NCBI GenBank assembly: GCA_016287765.1
Contig: JAEEWS010000024.1
Span: 1 to 39,357 of the forward strand
Length of the DNA stretch: 39,357 nt
Reading direction: 5' to 3'
Origin: Lachnospiraceae bacterium
GTDB taxonomy: Bacteria; Bacillota_A; Clostridia; Lachnospirales; Lachnospiraceae
Positions 1 to 39,289 of the stretch are shown one piece after another; positions within the stretch are counted from its first letter, which is position 1, and each line of letters opens with the position of its first letter. A program made the translations under genes and the position numbers. A model generated the notes under the pieces. The model searched no databases and was not told the origin of the DNA. It saw only the letters and a program-made list of their open reading frames with translations.

Positions 1-165
1 GGTTAGGGTGTCACTTTTTGAGCCTTTGGGGACGGGGTTAGCGGTTCATTTTGCGCGCAAAATGAACCGCTAACCCCGTCCCCAAAGGCTCAAAAAGTGA
101 CACCCTAACCCCGTCCCCAAAGGCTCATAAAGTGACACCCTAACCCCGTCCCCAAAGGGTCATAA
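1..165. repeat. G-rich dispersed repeat, copy 1 (110-bp perfect palindrome plus two more units)
   Basis: Positions 1-55 are the exact reverse complement of 56-110, centred on GCGCGC. Each arm carries the core GGGGACGGGGTTAGCGG and a second motif ending in GTGTCACTTTTTGAGCC. Two more minus-strand units follow at about 104-128 and 134-160. The window edge cuts the element, so the palindrome may extend leftwards. The last unit runs into the preceding minus-strand gene and provides its TGA stop at 160-162. I know of no exact family name; it behaves like a REP/BIME-type intergenic repeat. Confidence 0.93.
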
Positions 166-1098
166 TACTGCCGTTGCGACTGCGATCAGCAGGGTAATGG
201 TTACAATTGAAACCGCGGTGGTTACTGCGATGGCTGAAGAGAGGATGGAGGTGTCCATCCCCTTTTTTTCAGCGGTTATCATGGGAAGATTTCCCACGGG
301 AACCGCGGCCATAAGGCACATGGCAAGGGTTGCGGTCTTGTCAAAGGAAACAGCATGCAAAATGAACACGATCACTATGGGAAGAAGGACCAGACGCAAA
401 GCGATGAAGACCCATATGCGAAGATCTTTAAGCGAGGACAGCAGGCTGGAACGGGCGATGGATGCGCCAAGCAGTACCATGGAAAGAAATACTGTGGCAT
501 TTCCCACATATTCCGCTGTATTTGCAAGGATGGGCGGAAGCTGGATCCCAAACCAAAAGACGATCAGGCTTATCACAGCCATAATGGTTCCGGGATTTAA
601 AAGCTGACGAAGGGGATTTATCCTGTGACCTTCCTCATTGGGACCCGAGCCCAGAGTGGCAAGGCCGTGGGTATAGAACAGCAGGCTGTAAAATATGTTG
701 ATCACGATAACGTAAATTATTGCATTTGCGGGAAGAATGGCTTTGGCAATGGGAATCCCGAGAAAACCTGTGTTTGTGTAAACACACATGAGATTATAAA
801 ACTTGCGTTTGTCAGGCGCTACCCGAAGGAGCCTAGGGATCAGGTGACCCAAAACCACCAAAAGGGCATAAAAGGCCACACCCAGAATAGCGGCATACAC
901 CAGGTCTTTGTGACCTGCGGTTACATTGCCGCCCAGGATGGAAGCCAGGATCAGGGCCGGGTTACACACATCCACTACGATGGCGGAAAGCTTCCTGGAA
1001 CTTAAGGAGTCCACAACCCCTCTCTTCTCGAGGAAGATCCCGATGGCGACCAGAATGCAGATAACACCCATTTGCTGTAATATTATTGAAATACTCAT
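160..1098 (-). CDS. AEC family (auxin efflux carrier/malate permease-type) transporter
   Basis: Predicted 312-residue integral membrane protein with about ten hydrophobic segments, typical in length of the AEC family (PF03547) of the bile/arsenite/riboflavin transporter superfamily. Family signs include the early 'CNPALILASIL' stretch, the 'NTGFLGIPIAKAI' motif after the fourth helix, and the C-terminal half repeating the fold with 'AAVPVGNLPMITAEKKG'. Family members export organic acids or amino-acid-like substrates; the substrate here cannot be read. The start is supported by GGAGAT seven bases upstream of ATG. The TGA stop lies inside the adjacent dispersed repeat, so the last residues may differ from the ancestral protein. 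No neighbour suggests a pathway. Confidence 0.88.
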   Translation of the reverse strand: MSISIILQQMGVICILVAIGIFLEKRGVVDSLSSRKLSAIVVDVCNPALILASILGGNVTAGHKDLVYAAILGVAFYALLVVLGHLIPRLLRVAPDKRKFYNLMCVYTNTGFLGIPIAKAILPANAIIYVIVINIFYSLLFYTHGLATLGSGPNEEGHRINPLRQLLNPGTIMAVISLIVFWFGIQLPPILANTAEYVGNATVFLSMVLLGASIARSSLLSSLKDLRIWVFIALRLVLLPIVIVFILHAVSFDKTATLAMCLMAAVPVGNLPMITAEKKGMDTSILSSAIAVTTAVSIVTITLLIAVATAVL

Positions 1099-1196
1099 AT
1101 TTTTATCTCCGGATTAAATGATCAGCACACTATTTTATATTCCTTCGCCGGTTTTGTAAATAAATTTTTCTCAAATCTGAAGCCGGAAGGACGGGC

Positions 1197-1224
1197 TTGA
1201 TTTGGCTATGGTTTATGATAAAAT
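1197..1224 (+). promoter_or_regulatory. Candidate promoter for the 1263 cluster
   Basis: TTGATT, a 16-bp spacer and TAAAAT lie 39 bp upstream of the first gene of the 1263-3493 cluster. The match is good but the assignment is by eye only. Confidence 0.5.
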
Positions 1225-1262
1225 GTTATAAAGTTTAGGCAAGAAACGCACAGGATACGAAA

Positions 1263-2156
1263 ATGAAGATCTATTATCACCTTCCGGGGCTGTTTGAATT
1301 TTACGAATTGTATAAAGTTTTCCTGAAACTGTATCGCGAACACAGGGAATATTTTTATGACTTTTGCGAGATCGGATCCATATACGGAGCGCCCGGAGAC
1401 TGCCTTTGGGGCGGCGGGCGAGTGGGCTTCGGAGAGGAAGATCCCGGGAATGTGGCGGCGCTCATGCGGGCATATGCAGTCTCGGCCCGTTTGACTTTCA
1501 GCAATTCACTGATCGAAAAAAAGCATCTTTCGGATAAAAAATGCAATTCCCTTTGCAAACTGTTTGAACATAACGGAACTGCGGAAAACGGGGTGATTGT
1601 TCACTCCGACCTGCTTTTGGAATATATTAGAGAGCATTATCCTGACCTTTACTTTGCATCCTCCACCACTAAGGTGATCACGGATTTTGAAGAGTTTAGG
1701 AAGGAACTGGACCGCAGGGAATTTAAGTATGTGGTGCCGGATTTCAGGCTTAACAAAGAGTTTGACAAGCTTAAAGACCTGACCCGGGAACAAAAGAACA
1801 AGACGGAATTTCTCTGTAACGAATGCTGTTGGTTCGGCTGCAGGGACAGAAAAGCCTGCTACGAAAACGTGAGCAGAAAGAGCCTGGGTGAAAATTGTCC
1901 GGAACATATATGCAAGGCTCCGGGCGGAAACAGGGGCTATCGTTTTTCGGAAGCCATGAAAAATCCGGGGTTCATAGGGCTTGAGGACGTAGAGAAGAGA
2001 TATGCTCCGATGGGCTTCTCCCACTTTAAGATTGAGGGGCGAAGCCTGGGAAGCGCGGTGGTGCTGGAGTTTTTGCTGTATTACATGACGAAACCCGAGT
2101 GGCAGCTGAAGGTCCGGGAGGAGATCTACCTGGACAGCATGCTGGATCTGTTTTGA
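1263..2156 (+). CDS. Unrecognised cysteine-rich protein, possibly U32-peptidase/TIM-barrel related
   Basis: A 297-residue soluble protein that I cannot place firmly. The N-terminal half starts 'MKIYYHLPGLFEF' and contains a glycine-rich 'GAPGDCLWGGGRVGFG'. The middle has a conserved-looking cysteine cluster at about 178-206 (C-x2-CC-x3-GC-x4-KAC, then C-x3-IC), which could bind metal or an Fe-S cluster. Near the C terminus 'GFSHFKIEGRSLGS' resembles the 'GxDSFKIEGRMKS' segment of U32-family proteins (YhbU/YhbV, TrhP). The start has only a weak ribosome binding site (AGGATA). It is followed 12 bp later by the GH26 gene, so co-expression is likely. The U32 relation is inference. Confidence 0.7.
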   Translation: MKIYYHLPGLFEFYELYKVFLKLYREHREYFYDFCEIGSIYGAPGDCLWGGGRVGFGEEDPGNVAALMRAYAVSARLTFSNSLIEKKHLSDKKCNSLCKLFEHNGTAENGVIVHSDLLLEYIREHYPDLYFASSTTKVITDFEEFRKELDRREFKYVVPDFRLNKEFDKLKDLTREQKNKTEFLCNECCWFGCRDRKACYENVSRKSLGENCPEHICKAPGGNRGYRFSEAMKNPGFIGLEDVEKRYAPMGFSHFKIEGRSLGSAVVLEFLLYYMTKPEWQLKVREEIYLDSMLDLF

Positions 2157-2168
2157 GAGAGGAAGATT

Positions 2169-3137: not shown

Positions 3138-3160
3138 AAGTTGTGATTTTGGAGGTTGAT

Positions 3161-3493
3161 ATGTTAGACGAAAGATGGGTTTTTCATGAAAAGGTTAAGC
3201 CGGAGGATCAGGGAAACGGCGTGGTGAGAAGGGTCCTGGCTTACAGTAAGGATCTTATGTGTGTTGAAAATACATTTAAAAAGGGCGCTGTCGGTGCACT
3301 TCATCATCATCCTCACACCCAGATAACCTACGTGGTCAGCGGTAAGTTTGAGTTTGAGATAGATGGAGTAAAAAAGGTGGTTTCGGCAGGGGATACCATG
3401 CTTAAGACTAACAGCGTGGAGCACGGATGCGTGTGCCTGGAGGAAGGGATCCTGCTGGATATATTTAATCCCATGCGAGAGGATTTTGTGTGA
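3161..3493 (+). CDS. Small cupin protein, KdgF-like
   Basis: A 110-residue single-domain cupin. The first cupin motif is seen as 'GALHHHPHTQITYVVSG', with metal-binding histidines at about 49-52 and Gln in place of the usual Glu, as in KdgF. The second motif ends in 'NSVEHGCVCLEEG'. KdgF-type cupins linearise unsaturated uronates, and other members are sugar-binding or isomerising proteins. I start at ATG 3161 because GGAGG sits five bases upstream; an in-frame GTG at 3143 has no such site. It follows GH26 by 23 bp and probably belongs to the same transcript. The specific reaction is uncertain. Confidence 0.85.
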   Translation: MLDERWVFHEKVKPEDQGNGVVRRVLAYSKDLMCVENTFKKGAVGALHHHPHTQITYVVSGKFEFEIDGVKKVVSAGDTMLKTNSVEHGCVCLEEGILLDIFNPMREDFV

Positions 3494-3501
3494 TGCGGCA
3501 T

Positions 3502-3536
3502 TTTGAACCTTTGGGGACGGGGTTAGGGGTTCATTT
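3502..3536. repeat. G-rich dispersed repeat, copy 2 (single unit)
   Basis: One unit, TTTTGAACC-TTTGGGGACGGGGT-TAGGGGTTCATTTT in outline, fills the gap between two convergent genes. It starts about eight bases after the cupin stop and touches the TAA stop of the minus-strand gene at 3537. It could serve as the shared 3' boundary. Confidence 0.85.
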
Positions 3537-4409
3537 TTAGCAATTTCCGGTGTAAACAAATCTCAGGTTTTCCCGTGCAACTTCAGCCAGGCGGTAAACC
3601 CTTGATGTATCTGTGGCAGGCCGGTCAAGCATATTAAATCTTGGAAAGAATCTGGAAACATGGAGAGGAATTTCGGTTCCGATCCTGTTTCCTTTTTTGT
3701 CGGTTAAAGAAGCTACCCAGGAGGAAAGGGCTCGCATTTCCTCTTCAGAGTCATTTTCACCCGGGACTACAAGCGTCGTAAGCTCCACGTGACAATCCTT
3801 CACGGCCCGCTCGATAAAGGCTTTTACCATATTCAGATCCCCGCCCAGAACATCGTTGCAGTAGTGCTCAGTAAAGCCCTTTAAGTCTATGTTCATAGCG
3901 TCAATAAAGGGCAGGATATCTTCCAACACAGGAATAGACGCTGTACCGTTGGATACCAATACATTTTTCATACCCTTCTCATGTGCAAGTCTGGCGGAAT
4001 CCCGGACATATTCATACCCCACCAGAGGCTCGTTGTAAGTGAAGGCAACGCCTATGTTTCCCATACCTGTGTATCTTTCGGCAAGAGAAGCGAGATCCGC
4101 GGGAGAAACATAACGTACGTATTCAGAAGCAGGATCGGTAAATCCTTTGGTTTCTTCCGACCAGGATATCTCAGAATTCTGACAAAAGGGGCAGCGCAGG
4201 TTACAGCCGTAGCTTCCCACAGACAGGATCCTGCTACCGGGATAAAAGCGTGCCAGGGGCTTTTTCTCAATGGGATCAAGGGCAAGCCCCGTAAGTCTTC
4301 CGTAATTGGCAGCAACTACTTTGCCGTCTTTTACTGTCCTTGCCAGACAAAATCCAAGTTTCCCTTCTTTTATCTCACAATGTCTGAAACATACTTCACA
4401 ACGAGCCAT
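3537..4409 (-). CDS. amrS: AmmeMemoRadiSam system radical SAM enzyme
   Basis: A 290-residue radical SAM protein of the AmrS (PflA-like) family. The SAM cluster motif CNLRCPFC gives Cys69, Cys73 and Cys76, and the N terminus has the typical extra cysteines ('MARCEVCFRHCEIKEGKLGFC'). 'NVLVSNGTAS' and 'IDLKGFTEHYC' match the strands that hold SAM in this family. It follows the fused AmrB-AmrA gene by 11 bp on the same strand, which is the defining neighbourhood. The system's reaction is not settled; a radical modification involving the Memo and AMMECR1 partners is assumed. Ribosome binding site GAAGGGAAC lies upstream of ATG. Confidence 0.92.
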   Translation of the reverse strand: MARCEVCFRHCEIKEGKLGFCLARTVKDGKVVAANYGRLTGLALDPIEKKPLARFYPGSRILSVGSYGCNLRCPFCQNSEISWSEETKGFTDPASEYVRYVSPADLASLAERYTGMGNIGVAFTYNEPLVGYEYVRDSARLAHEKGMKNVLVSNGTASIPVLEDILPFIDAMNIDLKGFTEHYCNDVLGGDLNMVKAFIERAVKDCHVELTTLVVPGENDSEEEMRALSSWVASLTDKKGNRIGTEIPLHVSRFFPRFNMLDRPATDTSRVYRLAEVARENLRFVYTGNC

Positions 4410-4420
4410 ATTGTTCCCTT

Positions 4421-5818
4421 CTACTTGTGTCTTATAACTTCAAATCTTTCCAAAGAATAGTTTTCGTCGGGTGATATCCCGCCTTTCTTCATAGCGATCG
4501 CAACCTGGGTGTCCACATCATCCACGCCTTCCAGATCCGGAAGCAGCAGACCCCGCTTAAAACCGCAGGTAACAATTACTCCGTACCGCTTAACATCCAG
4601 CATATCACGGCTGTCTATGGGCTCCGGGGCGCTTAAGATATCAACGCTTACATCAAGAAATTTAAGTTCATTTTCGGTAATGGGTTCAAAACGCCTGTCT
4701 CTGCTGGAGGCACTGACGGCATTATTTGCTATTTCCTGCGCAATGCAGTCTGTGGTGGGAAGGATAGTGCCTATGCACCCTCGCAGATCACCGCATTTGT
4801 GGATGGAAACAAAGGCACCGGCCTGTTTCTTAAAGATCTCCTCCGGGAGCACCTTGAGCAGGCTTTCCGGAAGGTCCTTAGGGATATTGATCGATCTTTG
4901 ATATTTTACATAATTTTCAACGCAGAACCATGCCAGCCGGGCATATGGATCCGCGGCCTCTCTTTCTTTTTCAAGCTTTTCCGCGAATTTTTTTAAAAAT
5001 CTGCGATCCTCATCATCACCTGTGGGACGGAAGGAGGCAATTCCATATCCTACACCTGTAACATCCTGATGTGAGTACACTTCAGACGTTACCGACATTC
5101 CGTCAAAAGCACCTGCCATAATGACAAAGGATTTGTGACCGCATTCGGCGGCTTTTTGGCAGAAGGAAGGATCGAATTCCAGCATTTCTCCGAAGGCCGC
5201 TCTTTTGGCCAAATCTATTATTCTATCGTCGTAGATCGGGCCTTCGGGAGCAAAACCGTAAGGACCGTAGGTCTGCAATTTATGAGACAGATCTCCGCTG
5301 GCCACAAAAACAGCTTTTCGGCTGAGAGTGTTTACAGCGTCGCGAATGTATATGCCAAGCTGATAATGATCCGCAAGGGAAAGGCCCGAAAGGCCGATAC
5401 GCACGATCTTGGCACCCGGCAGGTACTTTCGGATAAAATAGAGAGGCACCATGGTACCGTGGTCCAGGCGCTTGTCCCGCTCTCCCAGCGTGCCGGCAGG
5501 GAAATGATGCTCGTCAGCGATACGGCAAAGAGTCTGTACCAGCTCAGTATCATAGGGCTCGTCAAAGGTTACATTGGGCGCACGAAAACTGCCGAAGTCG
5601 CCCTTGGCACCGCTCCCCGGGGATATGTGAAAATAGTCCGCGTACATGACCGTATGCGGGCTGGTGATGATGATCGTGTCCGGAGCCAGCTCCGCGATCT
5701 CTTTTGCCACCCGTGTATAGGCGGCGGTGGTCTCCTCTATCTGCTGTTCGCTTCCGTGCCCCACATCCGGCACTATCATAGGCGGATGTGGCACCATATA
5801 TCCTGCTAAGATTCCCAT
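4421..5818 (-). CDS. Fused AmmeMemoRadiSam protein B (Memo) and A (AMMECR1)
   Basis: A 465-residue fusion. Residues about 1-260 are a Memo/class III extradiol dioxygenase-like domain with candidate metal histidines in 'HPPMIVPD', 'SPHTVMYADYFH', 'LDHGTMVPLYF' and 'SGDLSHKL'. Residues about 285-465 are an AMMECR1 domain with the signature 'LRGCIGTILPTTD' and 'DRRFEPITENEL'. I start at ATG 5818 because GGAGGTG sits seven bases upstream; a further upstream in-frame ATG would overlap that site. amrS follows 11 bp downstream. In many genomes A and B are separate genes, so the fusion supports physical cooperation of the two proteins. Confidence 0.92.
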   Translation of the reverse strand: MGILAGYMVPHPPMIVPDVGHGSEQQIEETTAAYTRVAKEIAELAPDTIIITSPHTVMYADYFHISPGSGAKGDFGSFRAPNVTFDEPYDTELVQTLCRIADEHHFPAGTLGERDKRLDHGTMVPLYFIRKYLPGAKIVRIGLSGLSLADHYQLGIYIRDAVNTLSRKAVFVASGDLSHKLQTYGPYGFAPEGPIYDDRIIDLAKRAAFGEMLEFDPSFCQKAAECGHKSFVIMAGAFDGMSVTSEVYSHQDVTGVGYGIASFRPTGDDEDRRFLKKFAEKLEKEREAADPYARLAWFCVENYVKYQRSINIPKDLPESLLKVLPEEIFKKQAGAFVSIHKCGDLRGCIGTILPTTDCIAQEIANNAVSASSRDRRFEPITENELKFLDVSVDILSAPEPIDSRDMLDVKRYGVIVTCGFKRGLLLPDLEGVDDVDTQVAIAMKKGGISPDENYSLERFEVIRHK

Positions 5819-5857
5819 AAAAAACACCTCCGCTATCATTTTAGTACAAAGTTTCCC

Positions 5858-5930
5858 ATTTTTGAACCCCCGGGACGGGGTTAGGGGTTCATTTTTTGAC
5901 CCTCGGGGACGGGGTTAGGGGTTCATTTTT
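5858..5930. repeat. G-rich dispersed repeat, copy 3 (two tandem units)
   Basis: Two head-to-tail units with GGGACGGGGTTAGGGG and GGGGACGGGGTTAGGGG. This is the only copy in a divergent gap: it lies 40 bp 5' of the AmrB-AmrA start and upstream of the 5973 promoter. It therefore cannot be explained as a 3' terminator for either neighbour. Confidence 0.88.
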
Positions 5931-5972
5931 GCATGAGAGTTGAAGAAGTCGGCCGAAAAATAAAATTTTGAA

Positions 5973-6001
5973 TTGTGGTTTTGATAAATAACTGTTATAT
6001 T
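5973..6001 (+). promoter_or_regulatory. Candidate promoter for the prolyl-tRNA editing gene
   Basis: TTGTGG, a 17-bp spacer and TATATT, about 57 bp before the translation start. Spacing is ideal; the -35 box is moderate. Confidence 0.55.
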
Positions 6002-6058
6002 TTAACGAAAATGTATAAGTATACCGCCGGCCATATAATACCGGGGCAAGGAGGCAAA

Positions 6059-6604
6059 ATGGAATTATATAAGGGAAGACCCGAGAATACGGAAGGGCGG
6101 ATGCAGAGAGAGATACGGACTTATGACTTTCTGGATTCCCTGGGGATCGAATACTTTAGGACCGACCACGAAGCAGCCGGAACGATGGAGGCATGTAACG
6201 AGGTTGATGAGATCCTTGGAGTCGTGATCTGCAAAAATCTTTTTCTTTGCAACAGGCAGAAAACGGCATTTTACCTGCTTATGATGCCGGGCGACAAGAA
6301 GTTTAAGACAAAGGAACTTTCCGCGCAGATCGGATCGTCAAGACTTTCTTTTGCGGAGCCGGAAGATATGCTTAAGTATCTGGATATCGAGCCGGGGTCG
6401 GTAAGCATAATGGGTCTGATGAACGACAATGGCCACAAAGTACAGCTTTTGATCGATGAAGATGTATTGAAGGAGGAAAACTTAGGCTGCCATCCCTGTA
6501 TATGTACTTCCAGTCTAAAAATGAAAACCAAAGATGTGATAGAGAAGTTTTTACCGGCTACAGGTCACGGCTATAAGACGGTACATCTTGTGGGAGAGGA
6601 TTGA
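6059..6604 (+). CDS. YbaK/prolyl-tRNA editing (ProX-type) deacylase domain protein
   Basis: A 181-residue YbaK/aminoacyl-tRNA synthetase-associated domain (PF04073). The family hydrolyses mischarged tRNAs such as Ala-tRNA(Pro). Family elements are 'YDFLDSLGIEYFRTDHE' at the N terminus, 'VVICKNLFLCNRQKTAFYLLMMPGDKKFKTKEL' broken into strand and helix with the conserved Lys after the CKN segment, 'SRLSFAEPEDM', and 'PGSVSIMGLMND' with the GSV/GL loop. The C terminus 'LGCHPCICTSSLKMKTKDV' is typical of the stand-alone ProX type. The start at 6059 has AAGGAGG upstream; a longer GTG start at 5975 lacks a site. The stop is directly followed by a repeat copy. Confidence 0.88.
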   Translation: MELYKGRPENTEGRMQREIRTYDFLDSLGIEYFRTDHEAAGTMEACNEVDEILGVVICKNLFLCNRQKTAFYLLMMPGDKKFKTKELSAQIGSSRLSFAEPEDMLKYLDIEPGSVSIMGLMNDNGHKVQLLIDEDVLKEENLGCHPCICTSSLKMKTKDVIEKFLPATGHGYKTVHLVGED

Positions 6605-6674
6605 AAATGAACCCCTAACCCCGTCCCCAAAGGGTCAAAAAATGAACCTCTAACCCCGTCCCGGGGGTTCAAAA
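6605..6674. repeat. G-rich dispersed repeat, copy 4 (two tandem units, minus orientation)
   Basis: Begins immediately after the TGA of the editing gene. Two units carry AACCCCTAACCCCGTCCCC and its variant with CTCTAACCCC. The end of the second unit lies four bases before the -35 box of the next promoter. Confidence 0.88.
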
Positions 6675-6712: not shown

Positions 6713-6975
6713 ATCATATGAAAGGAGCGCTTTACGCGTAGGTGAAGGAATGATAATCAGATGATCATGTTTAGGTGAACACATTGGTAATGAGTTGGCT
6801 GCCGACGGCAGTTCATTTGTGTACGCTTAAACCGACATCATACATTTCTTCCTATGGCCAGAAACGATATGCGTTTAGCGTTCATATGAACTCTGTCGTT
6901 AATATAGGATTATTGTGTGAGTCTGTTTGCGTATGCAAGCAGGCTCATTTTTTTAGAACGGAGGAACAGGCATAT
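6713..6975 (+). promoter_or_regulatory. Long 5' leader of the ABC-F gene with micro-ORFs and a terminator (probable attenuator)
   Basis: This 5' leader ends in an intrinsic terminator just before the gene. Upstream of that are two overlapping micro-ORFs next to an AGGTGAAGGA site: MIIR (6750-6764) and MIMFR (6761-6778). A small hairpin CTGCC-GAC-GGCAG occurs near 6800-6815. This architecture matches ribosome-mediated transcription attenuation known for antibiotic-resistance ABC-F genes in Firmicutes, where drug-stalled ribosomes on a leader peptide block terminator formation. I could not define a convincing antiterminator by eye, so the mechanism is inference and the leader layout is direct observation. 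Confidence 0.65.
6918..6954 (+). terminator. Intrinsic terminator within the ABC-F leader
   Basis: Stem TGAGTCTGTTTGC with GCAAGCAGGCTCA, loop GTAT, then seven T. The 13-bp stem contains two G-T pairs. It ends 21 bp before the ABC-F start codon and only a few bases before its ribosome binding site, so readthrough must be conditional for the gene to be expressed from the 6678 promoter. Confidence 0.82.
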
Positions 6976-8529
6976 ATGTTGCAGATTAAAAATCTTACAA
7001 TTACGCACAGAAAGGATCTGCGCGTGATAATTGAAAATTTTAATATGACTTTGAACGACGGGGACAAAGCTGTGATCATCGGAGAAGAGGGGAACGGCAA
7101 AAGCACTCTGATGAAGTGGATCTATGACCCGGAAATGGCTGAGGAGTACACCGAGTGCACCGGAGAAAGGGTAATAAATCAAGAGATCATGGGATACCTT
7201 CCCCAGGAACTTCCGGAAGGTGACAGATTGAAAACAGTTTATGAATACTTTTGTGAAGGCATATTTTTTCACGATACTTCACCGGGAGAACTGTCGACAC
7301 TAAGCTCTGATTTCGGACTCACTTCCGACTTCTTTTACAGTGATCAGATAATGGGAAGCTTGTCGGGAGGAGAGAAAGTAAAGGCACAGCTGATGAGAAT
7401 ATTGATTGACAAGCCCACAGTGCTTCTTCTTGACGAGCCTTCAAATGATATTGATATTGCAACATTGGAACTGTTGGAAAAGGTGATAAATGAATGGTCT
7501 CATATCGTACTTTACATATCCCATGATGAGACTCTTGTGGAGAATTCCGCAAATATGATAATCCATCTGGAACAGATCGCACATAAGACCAGGTGCAGAT
7601 ACACGGTGGTCAGGAATGATTATAGAAGTTATATGGCAAGAAGAGCGGATGCTTTTGAAAAACAGGAGCAGAAGGCACTGAATGACAAGAGAGAAAAGAA
7701 ATTGAGGGATGAAAAATACAAGAGGATCCTGCAGAAGGTGGAGCGTGCCCAGGCTACCATTAATCATGCGAATAAGTTTGACCTGGCGGATAAGATGCAG
7801 GCGGCGCATAACCTTAAGGACAAGATGCATACGGTAAAGTCCATGGGAAAACGGTTCGAAAGGGCAGATGAGAACATGACTGAAATGCCGGAGCAGGAAG
7901 AAGCCATATTTTTCAGGCTTGGGAATAAAAATTCAGCAATGCCGGCCGGAAAAACAGTTTTGGAATACTCTTTGGACGAACTCAGAACCCCCGATGGAAC
8001 AAGGGTGCTGGCTAAGGACATTTTCTTAAGGCTAAGGGGCAGCGAAAAGATATGCCTGGTGGGGGCTAACGGGGCAGGGAAAACCACGCTGCTTAAGAAA
8101 ATTGCGGAAGGGCTGTTGGCACGGACGGACATACGTGCGCAGTATATGCCCCAGAATTATGAGGACCTTTTGGATCTTTCGCTTTCGCCGGTGGAATTTT
8201 TGGATGAGACCGGGGAGAAGGCAGAGCGGACGAAGATACGGACATGGCTCGGGGCATTAAAGTACACCGCGGATGAGATGGATCACCCCATAGGAGAGCT
8301 GTCTGGTGGGCAGAAAGCCAAGGTGCTTCTCTTAAAGATGAGTCTGTCGGATGCAAATGTGCTGATCCTGGACGAACCTACCAGAAACTTTTCGCCTCTG
8401 TCGGGTCCTGTGATCCGAAGGATCCTGGCTGAGTTTCCGGGGGCGATCATCAGCATCTCCCATGACAGGAAATATATCAGCGAGGTGTGTACAAAAACCT
8501 ACACTTTATCAACGGAAGGACTAAAATGA
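6976..8529 (+). CDS. ABC-F family ATPase (possible ribosome protection protein)
   Basis: A 517-residue soluble protein with two ABC cassettes and no membrane domain. Cassette 1 has Walker A 'GEEGNGKST', signature 'LSGGEKVKAQL' and Walker B 'VLLLDEPSNDID'. A charged linker follows (about 215-290). Cassette 2 has Walker A 'GANGAGKTT', signature 'LSGGQKAKVLL' and 'VLILDEPTRNFSPLSGP', which replaces the usual DEPTNHLD. Members bind the ribosomal E site and rescue translation or displace antibiotics. The start at ATG 6976 follows a GGAGG; upstream in-frame codons overlap the leader terminator. The TGA stop is part of repeat copy 5. The attenuator leader supports a drug-responsive role; the antibiotic class is unknown. 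Confidence 0.88.
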   Translation: MLQIKNLTITHRKDLRVIIENFNMTLNDGDKAVIIGEEGNGKSTLMKWIYDPEMAEEYTECTGERVINQEIMGYLPQELPEGDRLKTVYEYFCEGIFFHDTSPGELSTLSSDFGLTSDFFYSDQIMGSLSGGEKVKAQLMRILIDKPTVLLLDEPSNDIDIATLELLEKVINEWSHIVLYISHDETLVENSANMIIHLEQIAHKTRCRYTVVRNDYRSYMARRADAFEKQEQKALNDKREKKLRDEKYKRILQKVERAQATINHANKFDLADKMQAAHNLKDKMHTVKSMGKRFERADENMTEMPEQEEAIFFRLGNKNSAMPAGKTVLEYSLDELRTPDGTRVLAKDIFLRLRGSEKICLVGANGAGKTTLLKKIAEGLLARTDIRAQYMPQNYEDLLDLSLSPVEFLDETGEKAERTKIRTWLGALKYTADEMDHPIGELSGGQKAKVLLLKMSLSDANVLILDEPTRNFSPLSGPVIRRILAEFPGAIISISHDRKYISEVCTKTYTLSTEGLK

Positions 8530-8559
8530 ACCCCTAACCCCGTCCCCGGGGTTCATTTT
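8523..8559. repeat. G-rich dispersed repeat, copy 5 (single unit folding on itself)
   Basis: AAAATGAACCCC and GGGGTTCATTTT form a perfect 12-bp inverted repeat around TAACCCCGTCCC. The ABC-F stop codon TGA (8527-8529) is inside the left arm. Confidence 0.88.
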
Positions 8560-9082: not shown

Positions 9083-9137
9083 AAATGAACCCCGGGGACG
9101 GGGTTAGTGGTTCATTTTTTGACCCTTTGGGGACGGA
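9083..9137. repeat. G-rich dispersed repeat, copy 6
   Basis: A compressed unit (AATGAACCCCGGGGACGGGG) joined to a second partial unit ending GACCCTTTGGGGACGG. It starts directly after the ASCH stop and its right end runs into the ribosome binding site of the HAD gene. Confidence 0.85.
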
Positions 9138-9148
9138 GGATTTAGTTG
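9131..9148 (+). promoter_or_regulatory. Ribosome binding site built at a repeat junction, with TTG start
   Basis: The repeat sequence GGGGACGG changes after 9136 into AGGATTTAGTTG. The GGAGG at 9135-9139 is thus half repeat and half unique, seven bases from the TTG start at 9146. No ATG occurs nearby in frame, which supports the TTG choice. Confidence 0.7.
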
Positions 9149-9836: not shown

Positions 9837-10313
9837 ATGAGCGGATACATTGCGGATATCAGGAAACTGGTGGGCCACAGAACGGTGATCCAATGTGCTG
9901 CAAGCATAATAATCCTTGACGACCAAAACAGGATCCTTCTGGGCAAAAGGGCGGACAACCACCTGTGGGGCTATTCCGGTGGATCTGTGGAGATCGACGA
10001 GAAGGTAGAAGATTGCGCCAAAAGAGAATTGATGGAAGAGATGGGGCTTGAAGCGGTGAACATGGAGTTTTTCTATGTAAACTCCGGAGCGGAGACCCAT
10101 TACATTTATCCAAACGGGGACGAGGTCTCAAATATCGAGATAGTATATGTATGCAGGAATTGGCGAGGTGAGCCCCGGGCTGCTGACGGGGAGGTCGAGG
10201 AACTTAAGTTCTTCAATATAGACGAGATCACGATTGATGAGATATCGCCTCCAATACGGCCTGTTTGGCAAAAACTCACGGAAAACATGAAGGAGAAAAA
10301 TGAAGTACGATAA
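9837..10313 (+). CDS. Nudix hydrolase
   Basis: A 158-residue Nudix protein. The Nudix box is complete: G, then E five residues on, then 'KRELMEEMGLEA', starting from 'GGSVEIDEKVEDC'. The preceding 'RILLGKRADNHLWGYSGG' is the usual substrate-side segment. The family hydrolyses nucleoside diphosphate derivatives. Ribosome binding site GGGAG precedes the ATG. The 3' end overlaps the sfsA start by 14 bp in another frame, implying translational coupling. Specific substrate unknown. Confidence 0.9.
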   Translation: MSGYIADIRKLVGHRTVIQCAASIIILDDQNRILLGKRADNHLWGYSGGSVEIDEKVEDCAKRELMEEMGLEAVNMEFFYVNSGAETHYIYPNGDEVSNIEIVYVCRNWRGEPRAADGEVEELKFFNIDEITIDEISPPIRPVWQKLTENMKEKNEVR

Positions 10314-10953
10314 CATTTATCCTGCGGTGTTTTTAAAACGTCCAAACCGTTTCATAGCGGAAGTAGAATTAAACGGGCATACAGAGACTGTACACGTTAA
10401 AAATACCGGCCGCTGCAAGGAACTTTTGATCCCCGGGTGCGAGGTCTGGCTGACGGCGCCGGGAACTCCGGGCAGGAAAACAAAGTATGACCTGGTGGCG
10501 GTCAGGAAGTTGGACGGGGTGCTTTACAATATTGACAGCCAGGCACCCAACAAGGTGGCCAAGGAATGGCTGGAAGAGCAGGGCTTTGACAAGATCTTGC
10601 CGGAGTACACTTATGGAGATTCCAGGATAGACTTTTACATGGAACGGGGCAGAGAAAAGTATCTGATGGAAGTAAAGGGCTGTACCCTTGAGATGGGCGG
10701 AGTAGGTTACTTCCCCGATGCGCCGACGGATAGAGGCGTGAAGCACATCCGGGAACTTATAAAAGCAAAAGAAGCAGGCTATCATGCTAGCCTCGCCTTT
10801 GTGATACAGATGGATGGGGTTAAAGAAGTCAGGGCAAATGTGGCTACTCATCCTGAATTTGGAGAAGCAATGGAAGACGCAAAAAAGGCCGGCGTGGAGA
10901 TCGTTTTCCTCACCTGCCACGTGGAGCCCGACAAAATAGTAATCGCAAAATGA
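10300..10953 (+). CDS. sfsA: DNA/RNA nuclease SfsA (sugar fermentation stimulation protein family)
   Basis: A 217-residue SfsA protein of normal length. The N-terminal OB-fold part has 'RPNRFIAEVELNGHTETVHV' in pieces and 'NTGRCKELLIPGCEVWL'. The C-terminal PD-(D/E)XK-like part has 'DSRIDFYM' and 'YLMEVKGCTLE' with the catalytic Asp, Glu and Lys, followed by 'FPDAPTDRGVKHIREL'. SfsA was first linked to maltose gene regulation and later described as a nucleic acid-binding nuclease. GAAGGAG in the end of the Nudix gene is its ribosome binding site. Its TGA stop begins repeat copy 7. Confidence 0.93.
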   Translation: MKYDNIYPAVFLKRPNRFIAEVELNGHTETVHVKNTGRCKELLIPGCEVWLTAPGTPGRKTKYDLVAVRKLDGVLYNIDSQAPNKVAKEWLEEQGFDKILPEYTYGDSRIDFYMERGREKYLMEVKGCTLEMGGVGYFPDAPTDRGVKHIRELIKAKEAGYHASLAFVIQMDGVKEVRANVATHPEFGEAMEDAKKAGVEIVFLTCHVEPDKIVIAK

Positions 10954-11018
10954 ACCTTTGGGGACGGGGTTAGGGGTTCATTTTTTGAACCCCTAACCCC
11001 GTCCCCGGGGGTCAAAAA
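10947..11018. repeat. G-rich dispersed repeat, copy 7 (inverted pair)
   Basis: Two units in opposite orientation form a hairpin with 21-bp perfect arms (GGGGACGGGGTTAGGGG plus TTCA) around a short T-rich loop. The sfsA stop codon is the TGA at 10951-10953, inside the left end. The right end AAAAAGG joins the AAGGAG ribosome binding site of the next gene. Confidence 0.9.
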
Positions 11019-12742: not shown

Positions 12743-12813
12743 AATGAGCCTTTGGGGACGGGGTTAGGGGTTCAAAAAAATGAACCCCTAACCCCGTCCC
12801 CGGGGGTCAAAAA
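12743..12813. repeat. G-rich dispersed repeat, copy 8 (inverted pair)
   Basis: Starts immediately after the TAA of the FMN enzyme. Two opposite units form a hairpin with 21-bp arms and an all-A loop of seven bases. The right end CAAAAAGG runs into the GGGGGAG ribosome binding site of the ABC exporter gene. Confidence 0.9.
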
Positions 12814-16441: not shown

Positions 16442-17298
16442 AAAGATCAAAAAGAAAACTCAGGAAAAATAAAATAAGCAAAAGAATAATCCTTCCGGTT
16501 CTGGTGTTATTGTTCATAGTCTGGTCCGTTTCTACCTGGATCCCGGTAACGGAAAGACTTGAGCTTGACATCCTTAAAGAACCGGGGGAGAATGTGAGGA
16601 TAGTGCTGGTTACGGATCTGCATTCCTGTAAATACGGTGAAGGGCAGAAAAGCCTTATTAACCGGATAGATAAGGAAAAACCGGATCTGATCCTTATGTC
16701 CGGGGACATCTTTGACGACAAGCTGGCCGATACCAACGCCAAGGCATTTATAGAAGGGCTGACGGGAAAGTATCCCTGCTACTATGTTACCGGAAATCAT
16801 GAATTCTGGAGCGGAAGAGCAGAAGAAATGAAGACCTATCTTAGAGATAAAGGGGTCAAAGTTCTTGAAGGCGGTTGCGAAAATATATGCGTTAAGGGAC
16901 ATGAGCTGGATATCTGCGGTGTCGATGATCCGGACGGAACCTCCCACAACGGCTGGCTTAAGCAGCTGGAAGCGGCAGCGGAAGGTACAAACGATGACCA
17001 CTGTAGGCTATTGCTCTCCCACAGACCCGAGAGAGTCAGGTATTACGAAAAGTATGATTTTGACCTGATCCTTGCGGGGCATGCCCATGCAGGGCAGTTC
17101 AGGATACCTTTCGTAAATCGTGGCCTGATAGCCCCGAACCAGGGGCTCATGGCAAGGTATGTGAACGGGTTATATGAGCTTTCCAACGGAAGTCTTATGG
17201 AAGTGAGCAGGGGCCTTGCAAGGGAGAGCATTCCTTTACCCAGATACTTTAACCACCCGGAGATAGTGGTGATAGATCTGCATTATAACGAAAAATGA
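16438..17298 (+). CDS. Membrane-anchored metallophosphoesterase (YkuE/YaeI-like)
   Basis: A 286-residue calcineurin-like phosphoesterase with one N-terminal transmembrane anchor at about 15-35. All metal motifs are present: 'VTDLHS' (DxH), 'MSGDIFDD' (GDxxxD), 'TGNHEFW' (GNHE), 'LLLSHRPE' (H) and 'LAGHAHAGQFRIP' (GHxH). The family includes outer-face UDP-diacylglucosamine and lipid phosphatases. The 4-bp overlap with the ABC exporter suggests joint function, for example on an exported lipid or phosphorylated product, which is inference. Its TGA stop is inside repeat copy 9. Confidence 0.9.
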   Translation: MKRSKRKLRKNKISKRIILPVLVLLFIVWSVSTWIPVTERLELDILKEPGENVRIVLVTDLHSCKYGEGQKSLINRIDKEKPDLILMSGDIFDDKLADTNAKAFIEGLTGKYPCYYVTGNHEFWSGRAEEMKTYLRDKGVKVLEGGCENICVKGHELDICGVDDPDGTSHNGWLKQLEAAAEGTNDDHCRLLLSHRPERVRYYEKYDFDLILAGHAHAGQFRIPFVNRGLIAPNQGLMARYVNGLYELSNGSLMEVSRGLARESIPLPRYFNHPEIVVIDLHYNEK

Positions 17299-17363
17299 GC
17301 CTTTGGGGACGGGGTTAGGGGGTCACTTTTTGACCCCCTAACCCCGTCCCCAAAGGCTCAAAA
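17291..17363. repeat. G-rich dispersed repeat, copy 9 (long perfect hairpin)
   Basis: Arms 17296-17324 and 17332-17360 are perfectly complementary over 29 bp with a seven-base loop ACTTTTT. The left arm includes the TGA stop of the phosphoesterase gene. It lies between convergent genes and ends nine bases from the TAA of the minus-strand gene, so it could act as a bidirectional terminator. Confidence 0.92.
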
Positions 17364-17371: not shown

Positions 17372-18004
17372 TTACCTGAAAGCTCCGAAGAATTTTGCCA
17401 GAGGCTCGATCACAGCGCTGAGATCTTTAATAGCCTTGTTGAGGGCTTCAAAATCCACTTTGTTAAGCTTCTGGATCGTCTCCGTGATAGCCTCGGTGTT
17501 GTTCTCCACCATGGCATTGGAATTTTCTATGAGGACACTGGCCTGATCCATAACGGTATCCATCTTGACGGTGGCTTTATTTATTTCTTCCATAGCCTTA
17601 TCCGCATCTGCGATCACCTGGTCGATCTGGGTGAGACTTGCTTCTGCATGACTGATGAATGCAGTGGTCTGAGGCATGATCACATCATTGGCCTGCGTGA
17701 GAAGATCGTTGGCTTCATTTGCGGCGGAGTTGATCTCAGTGAAGGCTGCCTCCGATTCAGCCATCAGCTTATCTACCTCGGACAGACTGGACTCTGCATG
17801 GTTTATGAATTGCAGAGTTCTGGGAATGATCATTATAAGTGACGCGGTCAGTATTATTACTCCGAATATTACTGAAAAAGAAGCCACTTTGGTGATCTTT
17901 GAATTCTTCTTTTGGTTTATCAACATTTCCTGTAACAGCTCCTCGGCGGTTTTTCCGGGAGTTTCTTTTTTTTCTTCAACACCTAAGTCTTGCCAATTTT
18001 CCAT
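17372..18004 (-). CDS. Membrane-anchored coiled-coil protein with an internal 50-residue repeat
   Basis: A 210-residue protein of no recognised family. A cytosolic N terminus of about 40 residues is followed by one transmembrane segment (about 42-65) and a long alpha-helical, Ala/Asn/Glu-rich outer region. Two tandem copies of about 50 residues are visible, beginning 'FINHAESSLSEVDKLM' and 'FISHAEASLTQIDQVI'; a third, divergent part follows. The pattern is like DUF948 or methyl-accepting-type periplasmic coiled coils but has no signalling domain. AAAGGAGAAATC precedes the ATG. Role unknown; a structural or sensing spacer is possible. Confidence 0.75.
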   Translation of the reverse strand: MENWQDLGVEEKKETPGKTAEELLQEMLINQKKNSKITKVASFSVIFGVIILTASLIMIIPRTLQFINHAESSLSEVDKLMAESEAAFTEINSAANEANDLLTQANDVIMPQTTAFISHAEASLTQIDQVIADADKAMEEINKATVKMDTVMDQASVLIENSNAMVENNTEAITETIQKLNKVDFEALNKAIKDLSAVIEPLAKFFGAFR

Positions 18005-33102: not shown

Positions 33103-33103
33103 G

Positions 33104-33706: not shown

Positions 33707-33707
33707 A

Positions 33708-34136: not shown

Positions 34137-34188
34137 TATGATCATCTTTAATGATGAGTGTGAATCCAAGCATACGGGCTGTCCTTTT

Positions 34189-34917: not shown

Positions 34918-35023
34918 TATCTGCCAATTTATAAAAGCATTGAAAACATATCACAGATTGTTGGATTTTTCAAGGGCTTGGGACCTATATGCACCACCTG
35001 AGTTTATTTAATTATATGTTTAT

Positions 35024-35051
35024 TTGTTGTTTTATATATATATGGTAAAAT
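35024..35051 (+). promoter_or_regulatory. Candidate promoter for the GH5 gene
   Basis: TTGTTG, 16-bp AT-rich spacer, TAAAAT. The rest of the 200-bp gap shows no other feature. Confidence 0.42.
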
Positions 35052-35117
35052 CAAAGTGATCAGCAAAAAATATGTAATATTACAGTTACTGAAAAAGGAA
35101 AACAGGAGAAGACATAA

Positions 35118-36149: not shown

Positions 36150-36205
36150 GAGAAAAATAAGGGGAATGTTACCGGTAAACAAGTCAGAAACATCGGAGGT
36201 GTCCT

Positions 36206-38098
36206 ATGTGGAGTTTCAGCTTTGTGGTCCCGACTTTAATGATCCTTATTATCATTCTGGCGTTTTATTTTACGCTACCGAGACTTCCCATCAATAAAAA
36301 CCGTTATTTTGTCACTATGATTCTCATAGAGGTATTTACGGTTATTATGAATATGATTTCCAGCTACGTGGATAACAATTACCGACAGTATTCCGTAGGT
36401 CTGGTAAATATTGTCAATATGCTTTACTTCCTGTCCTACTTTGCCAGGGCTCTAATTATTTACGAGTTTACGGCCGGTGTACTGGGAGTTACCCTGGGAA
36501 AATCGAAGGTGATAAAGTACATCCTAAGGATACCTTTTTATTTCTCTATGGTGTTGACGCTCCTGTCTATGTTTTGGAATATCATCTATTATGTGGACGA
36601 AAACGGATACCATGTGGGGGAAATGTATATTCTCCTTTATTATTGCGGCTTCTTTTACGTACTCATGTCTTTTTTGGCTGTATCCAGGTATCACAAAAGG
36701 CTTTCCGGCAGACGTGAGAAATACAGCATGATCCTGTATAATCTTATAGTCCTGGCAGGCCTCATAATGAGATTATTGTTTCCGACGTATCTGCTCATGG
36801 ATACTTTTGTGCTCATGGCGGTGATCGTTGTTTATCTGGCTTTTGAAAATCCCGAATATTATCTGGAACTGAAAAGCTCAGTATTTAACAGCAGAGCCTT
36901 AAGGGAATATCTGGAAGAGCATATCGTGCATATGAATGATCGATGCCTTGGATTGGTGGTACACCGTTACTATGAGATGAGAGATATCTACGGAGCCGCC
37001 CAGACCGATGCGGGCATGAATATGCTTGGAAAATATCTGGTTTCCATATATCCCAAGGGAAAGATCTTTTATTACAGAAGAGGCCGGTTCGTTATCCTGG
37101 GTAATTCGGATACTGAAATAAAGGAACTCAGCAGGACCATTTCCGAGAGGTTTAAACAGCCCTGGAAGTCCAGTGAAGCGGAAATCTATTTTGATGCGGG
37201 CTTTGCCATCATAGAATTAAGTGACAGAGTGGAATCCACCGATGTACTGCTTAATACCATAACCAGGGCTTTAGCCATGGCCGACATGTCGGACAGCGAG
37301 ATCCCTCTTGATATTAAGTATGATGAGCTTCTGGCCACGGAACAGGAAATGAAGGCCAAAAGAAGCCTTGAGGCAGCCATCGATCTCGGGAATGTGGAAC
37401 TTTTCCTGCAACCCATGTACGATGCAAGATTAGGTAAAATAGCCGGGGCTGAGGCCTTGGCCAGGATCAGGGATGAAAAGGGTAATCTCCTTCCACCTTC
37501 AAGCTTTATAAAGATAGCCGAAAAGAATGGCCGCATTAACGAGATCGGAGAGCAGATCTTTGAAAAGACCTGTAAGTTTATTAAAGAGCACGATCCCAAG
37601 AAATACGGGGTGGAATGGATCAATGTGAATCTCTCCCCCGTTCAGTTCGTACGTAAAGATATCGCGGAAAGATATGCCTATATAGCAGAAAAGTACGGTG
37701 TGGATCCGGGAATGATCCATCTGGAGATAACCGAAGAGGCGATGATAGACGAGTACTTCCTGAACAGGCAGATCAGGGTTCTTGCCGAAAAAGGCTTTAA
37801 GTTTGTGCTGGATGATTACGGCACAGGTTACTCCAATCTGGCAAGACTGAAAAAATGTCCGTTTATAAATATCAAGATCGATATGAGCATAGTCTGGGAT
37901 TACTGTAAAGAGCCGGATTACATCCTGCCCACCATGGTCCAGGCCTTTAAACACATGGGGTTTGGCATTACATCCGAGGGTGTGGAAGACGACAACATGG
38001 CAGAGACCATGAAGAACATCGGTAGCGATTACCTGCAGGGTTATCTCTATTCCAAGCCTCTGCCCGCTGAGGAATTCATAAAACAATATTTGAATTGA
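36206..38098 (+). CDS. Membrane-bound c-di-GMP phosphodiesterase (degenerate GGDEF plus EAL)
   Basis: A 630-residue protein. Six to seven transmembrane helices fill about 1-215. A GGDEF-like domain follows (about 225-370) in which the signature is replaced by 'YYRRGRFVILGN', so it should not make c-di-GMP. The EAL domain (about 390-630) keeps its active-site residues: 'AGAEALAR', 'WINVNLSPVQF', 'LEITEEAMI', 'LDDYGTGYSNL', 'NIKIDMSIV', 'SEGVED' and 'LQGYLYSKP'. It is thus a likely active phosphodiesterase with an N-terminal membrane sensor of unknown ligand. GGAGGTG precedes the ATG. Confidence 0.92.
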   Translation: MWSFSFVVPTLMILIIILAFYFTLPRLPINKNRYFVTMILIEVFTVIMNMISSYVDNNYRQYSVGLVNIVNMLYFLSYFARALIIYEFTAGVLGVTLGKSKVIKYILRIPFYFSMVLTLLSMFWNIIYYVDENGYHVGEMYILLYYCGFFYVLMSFLAVSRYHKRLSGRREKYSMILYNLIVLAGLIMRLLFPTYLLMDTFVLMAVIVVYLAFENPEYYLELKSSVFNSRALREYLEEHIVHMNDRCLGLVVHRYYEMRDIYGAAQTDAGMNMLGKYLVSIYPKGKIFYYRRGRFVILGNSDTEIKELSRTISERFKQPWKSSEAEIYFDAGFAIIELSDRVESTDVLLNTITRALAMADMSDSEIPLDIKYDELLATEQEMKAKRSLEAAIDLGNVELFLQPMYDARLGKIAGAEALARIRDEKGNLLPPSSFIKIAEKNGRINEIGEQIFEKTCKFIKEHDPKKYGVEWINVNLSPVQFVRKDIAERYAYIAEKYGVDPGMIHLEITEEAMIDEYFLNRQIRVLAEKGFKFVLDDYGTGYSNLARLKKCPFINIKIDMSIVWDYCKEPDYILPTMVQAFKHMGFGITSEGVEDDNMAETMKNIGSDYLQGYLYSKPLPAEEFIKQYLN

Positions 38099-38101
38099 TG
38101 C

Positions 38102-38176
38102 ATTTTTGACCCTTTGGGGACGGGGTTATAGGCTCATTTTTTGACACCCGGGGACGGGGTTAGGGGTTCAAAAAAA
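38102..38176. repeat. G-rich dispersed repeat, copy 10 (two tandem units)
   Basis: Two head-to-tail units, GGGGACGGGGTTATAGG and GGGGACGGGGTTAGGGG, beginning four bases after the EAL gene stop and ending nine bases before the first operator of the next operon. Confidence 0.88.
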
Positions 38177-38184
38177 GATTTAAA

Positions 38185-38278
38185 TTTTTAAAGCCTAACT
38201 TTAAAAATCCTATTGACATTTTAAAAATCCTTTGGTATTATCCTTACATAATTTAAAAATTTAAAGTAAAACTTTAAA
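38185..38278 (+). promoter_or_regulatory. Promoter flanked by two TTTAAAG-N5-CTTTAAA operators
   Basis: Operator 1 is TTTTTAAAG-CCTAA-CTTTAAAAA (38185-38207). The promoter is TTGACA, 17 bp, TATTAT (38213-38241). Operator 2 is TTTAAAG-TAAAA-CTTTAAA (38260-38278), beyond the predicted start site. Twin operators either side of a promoter suggest autorepression by the small HTH protein encoded at 38938. Confidence 0.75.
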
Positions 38279-38306
38279 AACACTTAATGAGAAGGGAGAT
38301 CATAAA

Positions 38307-38927
38307 ATGTCAAAGGATAAGACCAAAAAGGGTAAAAAGAGTGTAAAGGAATATGTTGTTGATTTTTTTTCTTTTTTATTGATAATGCTGGTGGTGTTCC
38401 GAGGCTATGAATTGGTGAAACTGGCTAGTATGGACAATGACAGTTTTGAGATAAGAAAGGAAACTGGCGAGCTTTATCCTCAAGCGGGAGAGGTGTACAA
38501 TCTATATATTGACGGCAAAGATAAAACACAGGTGGACTGGAATGAATATGCCCTGCAGGATGAAGACGGGAACACGGATTACAAATACTGTTATCTGATG
38601 CACTGCGTTGATCATTTTATGTATACATTGTTTGTTTGCGCAATGCTGTATCTTGTGCTGGTAATCTACAAGAACTCCGTTTTTGCCACTCCGTTTACCA
38701 GGGAAAATATAAAACTTGTTAAGGCCATATCTCTGCTTCAGGTGGGACTCGCTTTTGTGCCCGAGCTGGTTAGGAAGACCATGTCGCTTGTAAAATTCAA
38801 TTACATTCACAGTGTGATCGACATGGAAAGAGTGTATATGCTTGGCATAGCTGTTGTTATCTGCGGTATAGCCTTTATCTTTGAAAAAGGCCTGATACTC
38901 CGTGAAGATGTGGAAAGCATCGCGTAG
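38307..38927 (+). CDS. DUF2975 domain membrane protein
   Basis: A 206-residue protein with four transmembrane segments (about 18-38, 103-122, 137-158, 173-192) and a hydrophilic outer loop. 'FATPFTRENIKLVKAISLLQVGLA' (in part) is the DUF2975 core. It is followed 10 bp later by a YozG-like regulator, the usual pairing. Function unknown. AAGGGAG precedes the ATG. Confidence 0.88.
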   Translation: MSKDKTKKGKKSVKEYVVDFFSFLLIMLVVFRGYELVKLASMDNDSFEIRKETGELYPQAGEVYNLYIDGKDKTQVDWNEYALQDEDGNTDYKYCYLMHCVDHFMYTLFVCAMLYLVLVIYKNSVFATPFTRENIKLVKAISLLQVGLAFVPELVRKTMSLVKFNYIHSVIDMERVYMLGIAVVICGIAFIFEKGLILREDVESIA

Positions 38928-38937
38928 GAGGTGAAAT

Positions 38938-39156
38938 ATGGCAATAATAATCAGACTTGACCGAATGATGGCGGATAGAAAAATGTCTCTTAACGAACTG
39001 GCTGAAAAAGTGGGGCTGACCAATGTGAACATGTCAAATCTTAAAACCGGTAAGATGAAGGGCATACGTTTTGAAACCCTGAACATGATATGCAAGGTGC
39101 TGGATTGTCAGCCCGGGGATATACTGGAGTACTCGGCTGACGACGAAGAAAAATAA
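38938..39156 (+). CDS. Small Cro/CI-type HTH regulator (YozG-like)
   Basis: A 72-residue helix-turn-helix protein. 'RLDRMMADRKMSLNELAEKVGLTNVNMSNLKTGKMKGIRF' (in segments) is the HTH and 'LNMICKVLDCQPGDILEY' the standard C-terminal helix. The family forms a pair with DUF2975 proteins. It likely binds the TTTAAAG operators upstream. GGAGG lies six bases before the ATG. Confidence 0.92.
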   Translation: MAIIIRLDRMMADRKMSLNELAEKVGLTNVNMSNLKTGKMKGIRFETLNMICKVLDCQPGDILEYSADDEEK

Positions 39157-39172
39157 AGAACAGGAAAGAAAG

Positions 39173-39289
39173 TTTTGACCCTTTGGGGACGGGGTTAGGG
39201 GTTCAACTTTTGAGCCTTTGGGGACGGGGTTAGAGGTTCATTTTTCGGCGCGCAGCGCCAAAATGAACCTCTAACCCCGTCCCCAAAGT
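39173..39289. repeat. G-rich dispersed repeat, copy 11 (two direct units plus one inverted)
   Basis: Two plus-orientation units are followed by a minus unit. The second and third form a hairpin with 29-bp arms around a GC-rich loop containing GGCGCGCAGCGCC. It begins some 16 bases after the HTH gene's stop. Confidence 0.9.

Follow-up and report, generated by a model that had tools for sequence, protein, structure and literature searches.

A REP-like repeat family at gene ends of a Lachnospiraceae contig and its association with TIRYT-class transposases

The 39,357-nucleotide contig JAEEWS010000024.1 of a Lachnospiraceae bacterium (assembly GCA_016287765.1), analyzed as one stretch and called the window hereafter, carries a G-rich repeat dispersed over eleven sites. 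We found that this repeat family is real and strongly non-random, that its units are placed at 3' gene ends where an arm can supply the stop codon, and that in relatives it is associated with a clade of transposases. The repeats are probably REP-like (repetitive extragenic palindromic-like) elements, each a non-autonomous copy of the repeat found at the ends of a TIRYT-class HUH/Y1 transposase. Searching the window for the core GGGGACGGGGTTAGGGG with up to 3 mismatches returned 22 matches at 11 sites, against a mean of 0.07 and a maximum of 1 in 100 dinucleotide shuffles.

Anatomy and gene-end placement of the repeat units

Each unit is about 35 nt long and is built from TGA-N(1-2)-CC, a few bases, the core GGGGACGGGGTTA, GG-N(1-2)-TCA and a linker of about six T or A. 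The arms are able to pair, which leaves the core, including the conserved motif GGGGACGG, in the loop of a single-strand hairpin. Three sites hold one unit, six hold two, one holds three and one holds four. All eleven sites listed in an initial annotation of the window were recovered with these 22 units, at coordinates differing by a few bases, and the extracted units agree with its description of single, tandem and inverted units joined by T- or A-rich linkers. On folding, inverted pairs form long hairpins (z -8.0 and -11.9). Directly after the core, AGG predominates in the window (15/22) and in its nearest genome, G001 (49/87), and ATG in the congener G005 (62/93). An Rfam search with the repeat gave no match.

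The gene map of the window was drawn from open reading frames (ORFs) and Pfam, with 20 of its 95 ORFs run against Pfam. On this map ten of the eleven sites lie at 3' gene ends, as the initial annotation had it, the exception being S3 (Table 1). Its further statement that all sites are intergenic holds except where a unit arm shares the stop codon of the gene. One window site had been placed inside a long ORF by a simple ORF caller, and the Pfam-based map gives no support to this. For G001 and G005, gene calls followed a simple longest-ORF rule applied to 21 and 22 stretches, respectively, chosen for holding units or matching the window; the context count sets aside sites at contig edges (2 in the window, 16 in G001, 2 in G005) and inside a long ORF (1, 1 and 3). 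Within tandem intergenes, the unit was closer to the stop than to the next start in 6/6 cases in the window, 20/31 in G001 and 24/33 in G005. The TGA of a unit arm is itself the stop codon at 4/10, 8/20 and 22/31 unit-adjacent gene ends in the window, G001 and G005, and 26 of the 31 unit-adjacent genes of G005 end in TGA, compared with 122 of all 318 called genes. That TGA is the target site of insertion is an idea, and it stays one because empty sites are few (S4 in G005, S5 in G002) and units are found in either orientation.

Table 1. Repeat sites of the window, with their units and neighboring genes
Site	Position	Units	Gene context	Arm TGA that is the stop codon
S1	1..165	four (+,-,-,- on the + strand)	3' of Mem_trans gene 160-1098(-)	160-162 (- strand; right-most arm)
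S2	3502..3536 (+)	single	between convergent cupin 3143-3493(+) and radical-SAM 3537-4409(-) genes	
S3	5858..5930 (+)	two, tandem	between divergent genes 4421-5839(-) and 5975-6604(+); sole non-3' site	
S4	6604..6674 (-)	two, tandem	3' of tRNA_edit gene (+)	
S5	8523..8559 (-)	single	3' of ABC ATPase gene 6775-8529(+)	8527-8529
S6	9083..9137 (+)	one full, second cut off after GGGGACGG	3' of + gene	
S7	10947..11018	inverted pair	3' of sfsA gene 10300-10953(+)	10951-10953
S8	12743..12813	inverted pair	3' of FMN-dehydrogenase-like gene (+)	
S9	17291..17363	inverted pair, folding into a 30-bp hairpin	between convergent genes 16438-17298(+) and 17372-18004(-; no Pfam family)	17296-17298
S10	38102..38176 (+)	two, tandem	3' of EAL gene 36206-38098(+)	
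S11	39173..39289	three (+,+,-)	17 nt past the stop of small ORF 38938-39156(+)	

The truncation of the second unit at S6 (window 9121-9146) creates GGAGG, with identical bases in G001, and this GGAGG could be the ribosome-binding site of a HAD gene with a TTG start at 9146. The small ORF before S11, read by eye with no Pfam run, looks like a helix-turn-helix (HTH) protein.

Association with a clade of TIRYT transposases

Y1-transposase genes flanked by units of this kind, which the initial annotation had suggested looking for, were found in relatives. GGGGAC units surround the gene at five of the 14 Y1 loci fetched after a PF01797 search (G011, G005, G002, G017 and G040), with units as far as about 400 bp away in G040 and on a single side in G002. 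A TIRYT fragment in G001, which ends at a contig edge, shares 62% identity with the G005 TIRYT over residues 96-256 and is followed by a window-type unit 41 bp after the stop. All five TIRYT proteins analyzed (L177, L179, L180, L181 and L187) come from relatives, none from the window, and all match PF01797. The G011 and G005 proteins (L177, L179) also score above the cut-off of NF047646, REP-associated tyrosine transposase (RAYT), and those of G002, G017 and G040 (L180, L181, L187) match it below the cut-off. C-terminal HTH matches were obtained for L177, L179 and L181, with HTH_7 in L177 as the only one clearly above the Pfam cut-off; the match is weak in L180 (E 0.2) and absent from the shorter L187. 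NHIH and YIHNNP motifs are present in the TIRYTs of relatives, and their FQ and SS motifs and HTH tail fit subclass 2.1, going by the motifs and length given in Table 1 of PMC6006769. Homologues at E <= 1e-10 number 4399 and include proteins named 'REP element-mobilizing transposase RayT' and 'REP-associated tyrosine transposase [Butyrivibrio sp. AE2015]'. Only one sequence relative has a solved structure, 4er8 (TnpA-REP in complex with a REP hairpin), and the same entry is the best fold match (E 1.3e-7) of the AlphaFold model of a homologue (mean pLDDT 84.9). Judged by sequence, the cognate enzyme resembles an HTH-tailed TIRYT, that is, a HUH/Y1 transposase like those of RAYT subclass 2.1.

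A profile made from three TIRYTs matched 76 of 397 genomes of the family at E <= 1e-20, and copies of GGGGACGGGGTT were counted in the same 397. TIRYTs were present in 15 of the 19 genomes with at least 5 copies and in 61 of the 378 others (P 1e-8, kinship ignored). At least 5 copies were found in 10/12 genomes carrying a TIRYT of the window-type clade and in 9/385 others (P 2e-13, likewise ignoring kinship). Among the 30 best TIRYT loci, 25 have a core no more than 200 bp away and 14 have one on each side, compared with 2/24 IS200-like loci (measured from the matched domain) and 180/1200 distant 400-bp windows from the same loci.

A tree of 33 transposases groups the 12 rows labeled GGGGACGGGGT and the unlabeled G238 in one clade (SH-aLRT 99). 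With 28 rows labeled by hand and five lacking a clear unit, the 8 core subtypes require 7 changes on this tree, against a minimum of 10 in 500 shuffles; with ten more distant rows added (34/43 labeled), 9 states require 11 changes against a shuffled minimum of 15. The arms vary by clade (TGAACC/GGTTCA, TGATACA/TGTATCA, GAGTCA/TGACTC and GGGACAG/CTGTCCC) and nevertheless stay complementary: at the 29 of 33 loci with a core within 400 bp, the mean stem score is 5.86 versus 4.15 shuffled, and none of 1000 shuffles reaches it. Genomes with a GGGGACGGTTC-type TIRYT hold up to 168 copies of GGGGACGGTTC (G120 168, G040 100, G076 62, G147 59), although some with such a TIRYT have low counts (G221 17, G306 10, G002 8, G424 4); genomes of the window-type clade have 0-4 copies (20 in G159). 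G002 carries a different TIRYT (L180) with GAGTCA-armed GGGGACGGTTC units, so that two systems occur within one genus. In G017, GGAACCGGGGACGGAGATAAGTTCC-type units form a 30-bp tandem array close to its TIRYT (L181:2367-2500).

Spread among relatives and competing explanations

Exact copies of GGGGACGGGGTTA number 189 in G001, which matches the window at 94% identity across 12.6 kb, then 19, 11, 10, 102, 0 and 0 in the congeners G002 to G007, and 42 in G011; overall, 9 of the 61 genomes searched have any. A 21-nt pattern was found in 116 stretches, all of them from Lachnospiraceae bacterium but one, from [Clostridium] aminophilum, and no exact 17-nt core was found in viral contigs. Counts of exact 13-nt cores and of 16-nt cores with up to 2 mismatches are 189 and 227 in G001, 102 and 143 in G005, 19 and 33 in G002, 11 and 30 in G003, and 10 and 32 in G004. 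By profile search, a full TIRYT is present in G005, a fragment in G001 and one of another clade in G002, and none was found in G003 and G004, both of which are 79% complete. There are more decayed units in congeners where the cognate enzyme was not found, G003 and G004 being the incomplete genomes just named. G007, of the window's genus, has 29 copies of GGGGACGGTTC, no TIRYT match at E <= 0.001 and only an IS200-like gene. In G016 (L316), with 122 copies of GGGGACGGTTC, the sole trace of a TIRYT is a C-terminal remnant (residues 192-256, E 2e-10), and the repeat family may have outlived its enzyme there. Unit arrays coincide with contig ends in the window (1-165) and in several G001 contigs, so the repeats are a probable cause of breaks in short-read assemblies from this group.

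Orthologous sites were compared among these genomes. The window and G001 have equal unit numbers at S3 and S6 and differ at S4 (2 vs 1), S5 (1 vs 2) and S8 (2 vs 1), and at S7 a pair in the window corresponds to a 30-nt remnant in G001. G005 has units of its own type at S2 and S5 and on one side of S7 and S8, those at S8 forming a pair. The right junction of S2 has an intact unit in G005 and a decayed one in G002 and G004, and in G003 a decayed unit occupies the S1 junction. No unit is present at S5 in G002; S4 in G005 has none directly at the gene end, with a pair further down before the next gene. At S10, visual inspection of the window showed no GC-rich terminator ahead of the following gene at 38307; in G002, G003 and G004 the 130 nt inspected contain no unit and, again judged by eye, three different terminator-like hairpins. 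The initial annotation had named sites kept across relatives as evidence that would refute its model, and such sharing was seen in part, some junctions being common to congeners.

We propose that a transposase encoded elsewhere in the genome, itself flanked by a window-type unit, would recognize and cleave the hairpin and disperse units in trans, singly or as doublets. Most surviving copies would lie directly behind stop codons, where they may do little harm because the arm TGA can end the reading frame, and slippage between copies would add or remove single units locally. In multi-unit arrays of G005 the outer arms match in 17/33 cases versus 8.7 by chance (P 0.0014, best of 12 tests), and own and neighboring arms match no more than chance, a hint that doublets travel as one element. 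The initial annotation had suggested a REP/BIME-type family mobilized in trans by a RAYT/IS200-like enzyme. This proved right in kind, as the repeats are dispersed, range from 0 to 189 exact cores in one genus and flank RAYT-like genes of the cognate clade, but wrong if taken to mean a canonical GTAG REP. Its remark that the window holds no transposase is in line with a tblastn search with the G005 protein (E <= 1), which gave no TIRYT; the Pfam runs covered 20 of the 95 ORFs.

Several observations weigh against mobilization by a TIRYT. The transposase of the window's own genome was not seen, nine of the 14 Y1 loci fetched first lack such flanking units, and 5 of the 30 best TIRYT loci have no core within 200 bp. 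Four of the 19 copy-rich genomes (G030, G131, G151 and G267) have no TIRYT even at E <= 0.001, and the 122 copies of G016 stand beside a mere 65-residue remnant. Five more copy-rich genomes (G116, G186, G222, G336 and G414) carry distant TIRYTs only. Of ten TIRYT loci fetched from them, nine fall in a distant clade (SH-aLRT 96) and six have a core within 200 bp; the units of this clade are differently built, mostly with the core as a hairpin arm around T-rich and A-rich tracts (e.g. L318, L320, L321, L323 and L326). These genomes rule out the core type as the mark of a single clade, so GGGGACGGGGTT by itself is shared by more than one enzyme clade. No de novo insertion was observed, all six sites comparable with G001 being occupied in both genomes (S7 in G001 by the remnant), and the differences in unit number between the two could be slippage. 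Junctions common to congeners have flanks about 78-85% identical, which implies that those copies are old. Folding is weak for single units (z -0.5 at S2, and -2.3) and for the tandem pair S3 (z -0.9), and within genomes left and right arm variants are independent (26 matches vs 23.9 expected; 17 vs 16.3).

A doubtful variant is that gene-end sites act as near-permanent docking places, at which the TIRYT rewrites resident units in place with the current type. Rewriting would lead species about 80% identical to share junctions (S2 and S5, and one side of S7 and S8) with different intact unit types, and would leave units to rot where the cognate enzyme is missing. If true, the TIRYT maintains a genome-wide set of stop-codon-bearing 3' ends.

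We consider it unlikely that the units are instead host-selected intrinsic terminators, often bidirectional, or stabilizers of mRNA 3' ends that share a consensus and need no transposase. Their placement fits such a role: they lie within 10 bp on the stop side in 7/8, 15/37 and 28/45 cases and on the start side in 0/8, 5/37 and 7/55, and some sites persist in more than one species. Terminator-like scores on at least one strand were obtained for six of the first nine sites, and at S10 the window alone holds units where three congeners have terminator-like hairpins. A second terminator was kept at 0/28 unit ends versus 22/115 ends without units. This depletion, with a nominal P of 0.008, lost significance with matched masks (0/28 vs a mean of 2.2, P = 0.067; also 0.083). 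Among the 61 unit-adjacent gene ends, the first unit is in + orientation relative to the gene at 39 and - at 22, and in gene direction T-tails (21) and A-tails (24) are alike, 16 ends having neither. Action as a terminator is possible at individual sites, and orientation gives no sign of selection for termination. Units are also found in divergent regions (S3; 11/50 classed G005 sites), range from 0 to 189 exact cores inside one genus, flank transposases and vary with transposase phylogeny. The idea in the initial annotation that the repeat has replaced normal terminators is weakly supported by the difference at S10, against the masked depletion and the balance of tails.

Less probable still is a family resembling miniature inverted-repeat transposable elements (MITEs), derived from an ordinary insertion sequence (DDE or IS200/IS605) in place of a TIRYT. 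Short, non-coding, dispersed inverted repeats are what such a family would look like, and the matching outer arms of the G005 arrays suit it as well, but the core is rare at IS200-like loci (2/24) and G001, with its 189 cores, has no PF01797 match except the truncated TIRYT, DDE transposases not having been searched for. Chance or an assembly artefact of a low-complexity G-rich tract, to which the start or end of the window and many G001 contigs within arrays might point, is refuted by 22 matches where 0.07 are expected and by the presence of identical junctions, with the genes intact, in separately assembled genomes of related species.

Comparison with known systems

Like GTAG REPs, BIMEs and REPINs as described in the relevant passages of the literature, the repeats are extragenic, reach high copy number as single units and inverted doublets, and have a cognate RAYT flanked by its own repeats. 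The text of PMC3733652 notes that GTAG REPs, too, often supply the stop codon. They differ in having no GTAG foot (by eye, none of the 22 window units has GT[AG]G there) and in supplying TGA rather than TAG. According to passages of the REPIN work (PMC3116915, PMC8049555), copies are more numerous in RAYT-carrying E. coli and extragenic doublets are randomly placed; higher copy number with the enzyme is similar here, whereas the bias to gene ends is different. Elements of the IS200/IS605 type (IS608, ISDra2) share the HUH/Y1 fold, as modeled, but the unit described here carries no gene, and the IS200-like loci of relatives are mostly without it.

The closest likeness is to TIRYTs and TIRtrons, a class that has received little study. 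The corresponding passages of PMC3733652 describe RAYT-like genes flanked by GGGGWSAS inverted repeats, with repeat families of moderate abundance, and its main text has no words beginning Firmicutes, Clostrid or Lachno. Common to both are a RAYT-like transposase with a C-terminal HTH and FQ and SS motifs, G-rich inverted repeats flanking the gene (here with the core on both sides at 14 of the 30 best loci), and repeats elsewhere as singles, dimers and clusters. Of the cores, GGGGACAG fits GGGGWSAS, and the window's GGGGACGG is off at one position. Different here are the position of the core in a hairpin loop with clade-specific arms, the roughly 190 exact copies in G001, and the host family, Lachnospiraceae. 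Among the literature matches listed, no title points to this repeat family. It fits most naturally beside the TIRYT repeats, as a strongly amplified variant of REP-like character.

The relevant passages of PMC6006769 place 20 of the 26 TIRYTs of PMC3733652 in subclass 2.1 (also Bertels group 1), rank this subclass second in size within the TnpA-Y1 family, report no REP-like sequences near its members and call for further analyses. For this subclass, reported there without REP-like partners, we describe a probable matching repeat family, putatively mobile DNA that supplies stop codons on a large scale. In a common gut and rumen family a candidate substrate can now be named, together with the number of its copies and the way it varies with the enzyme, and what subclass 2.1 transposases act on thereby becomes directly testable.

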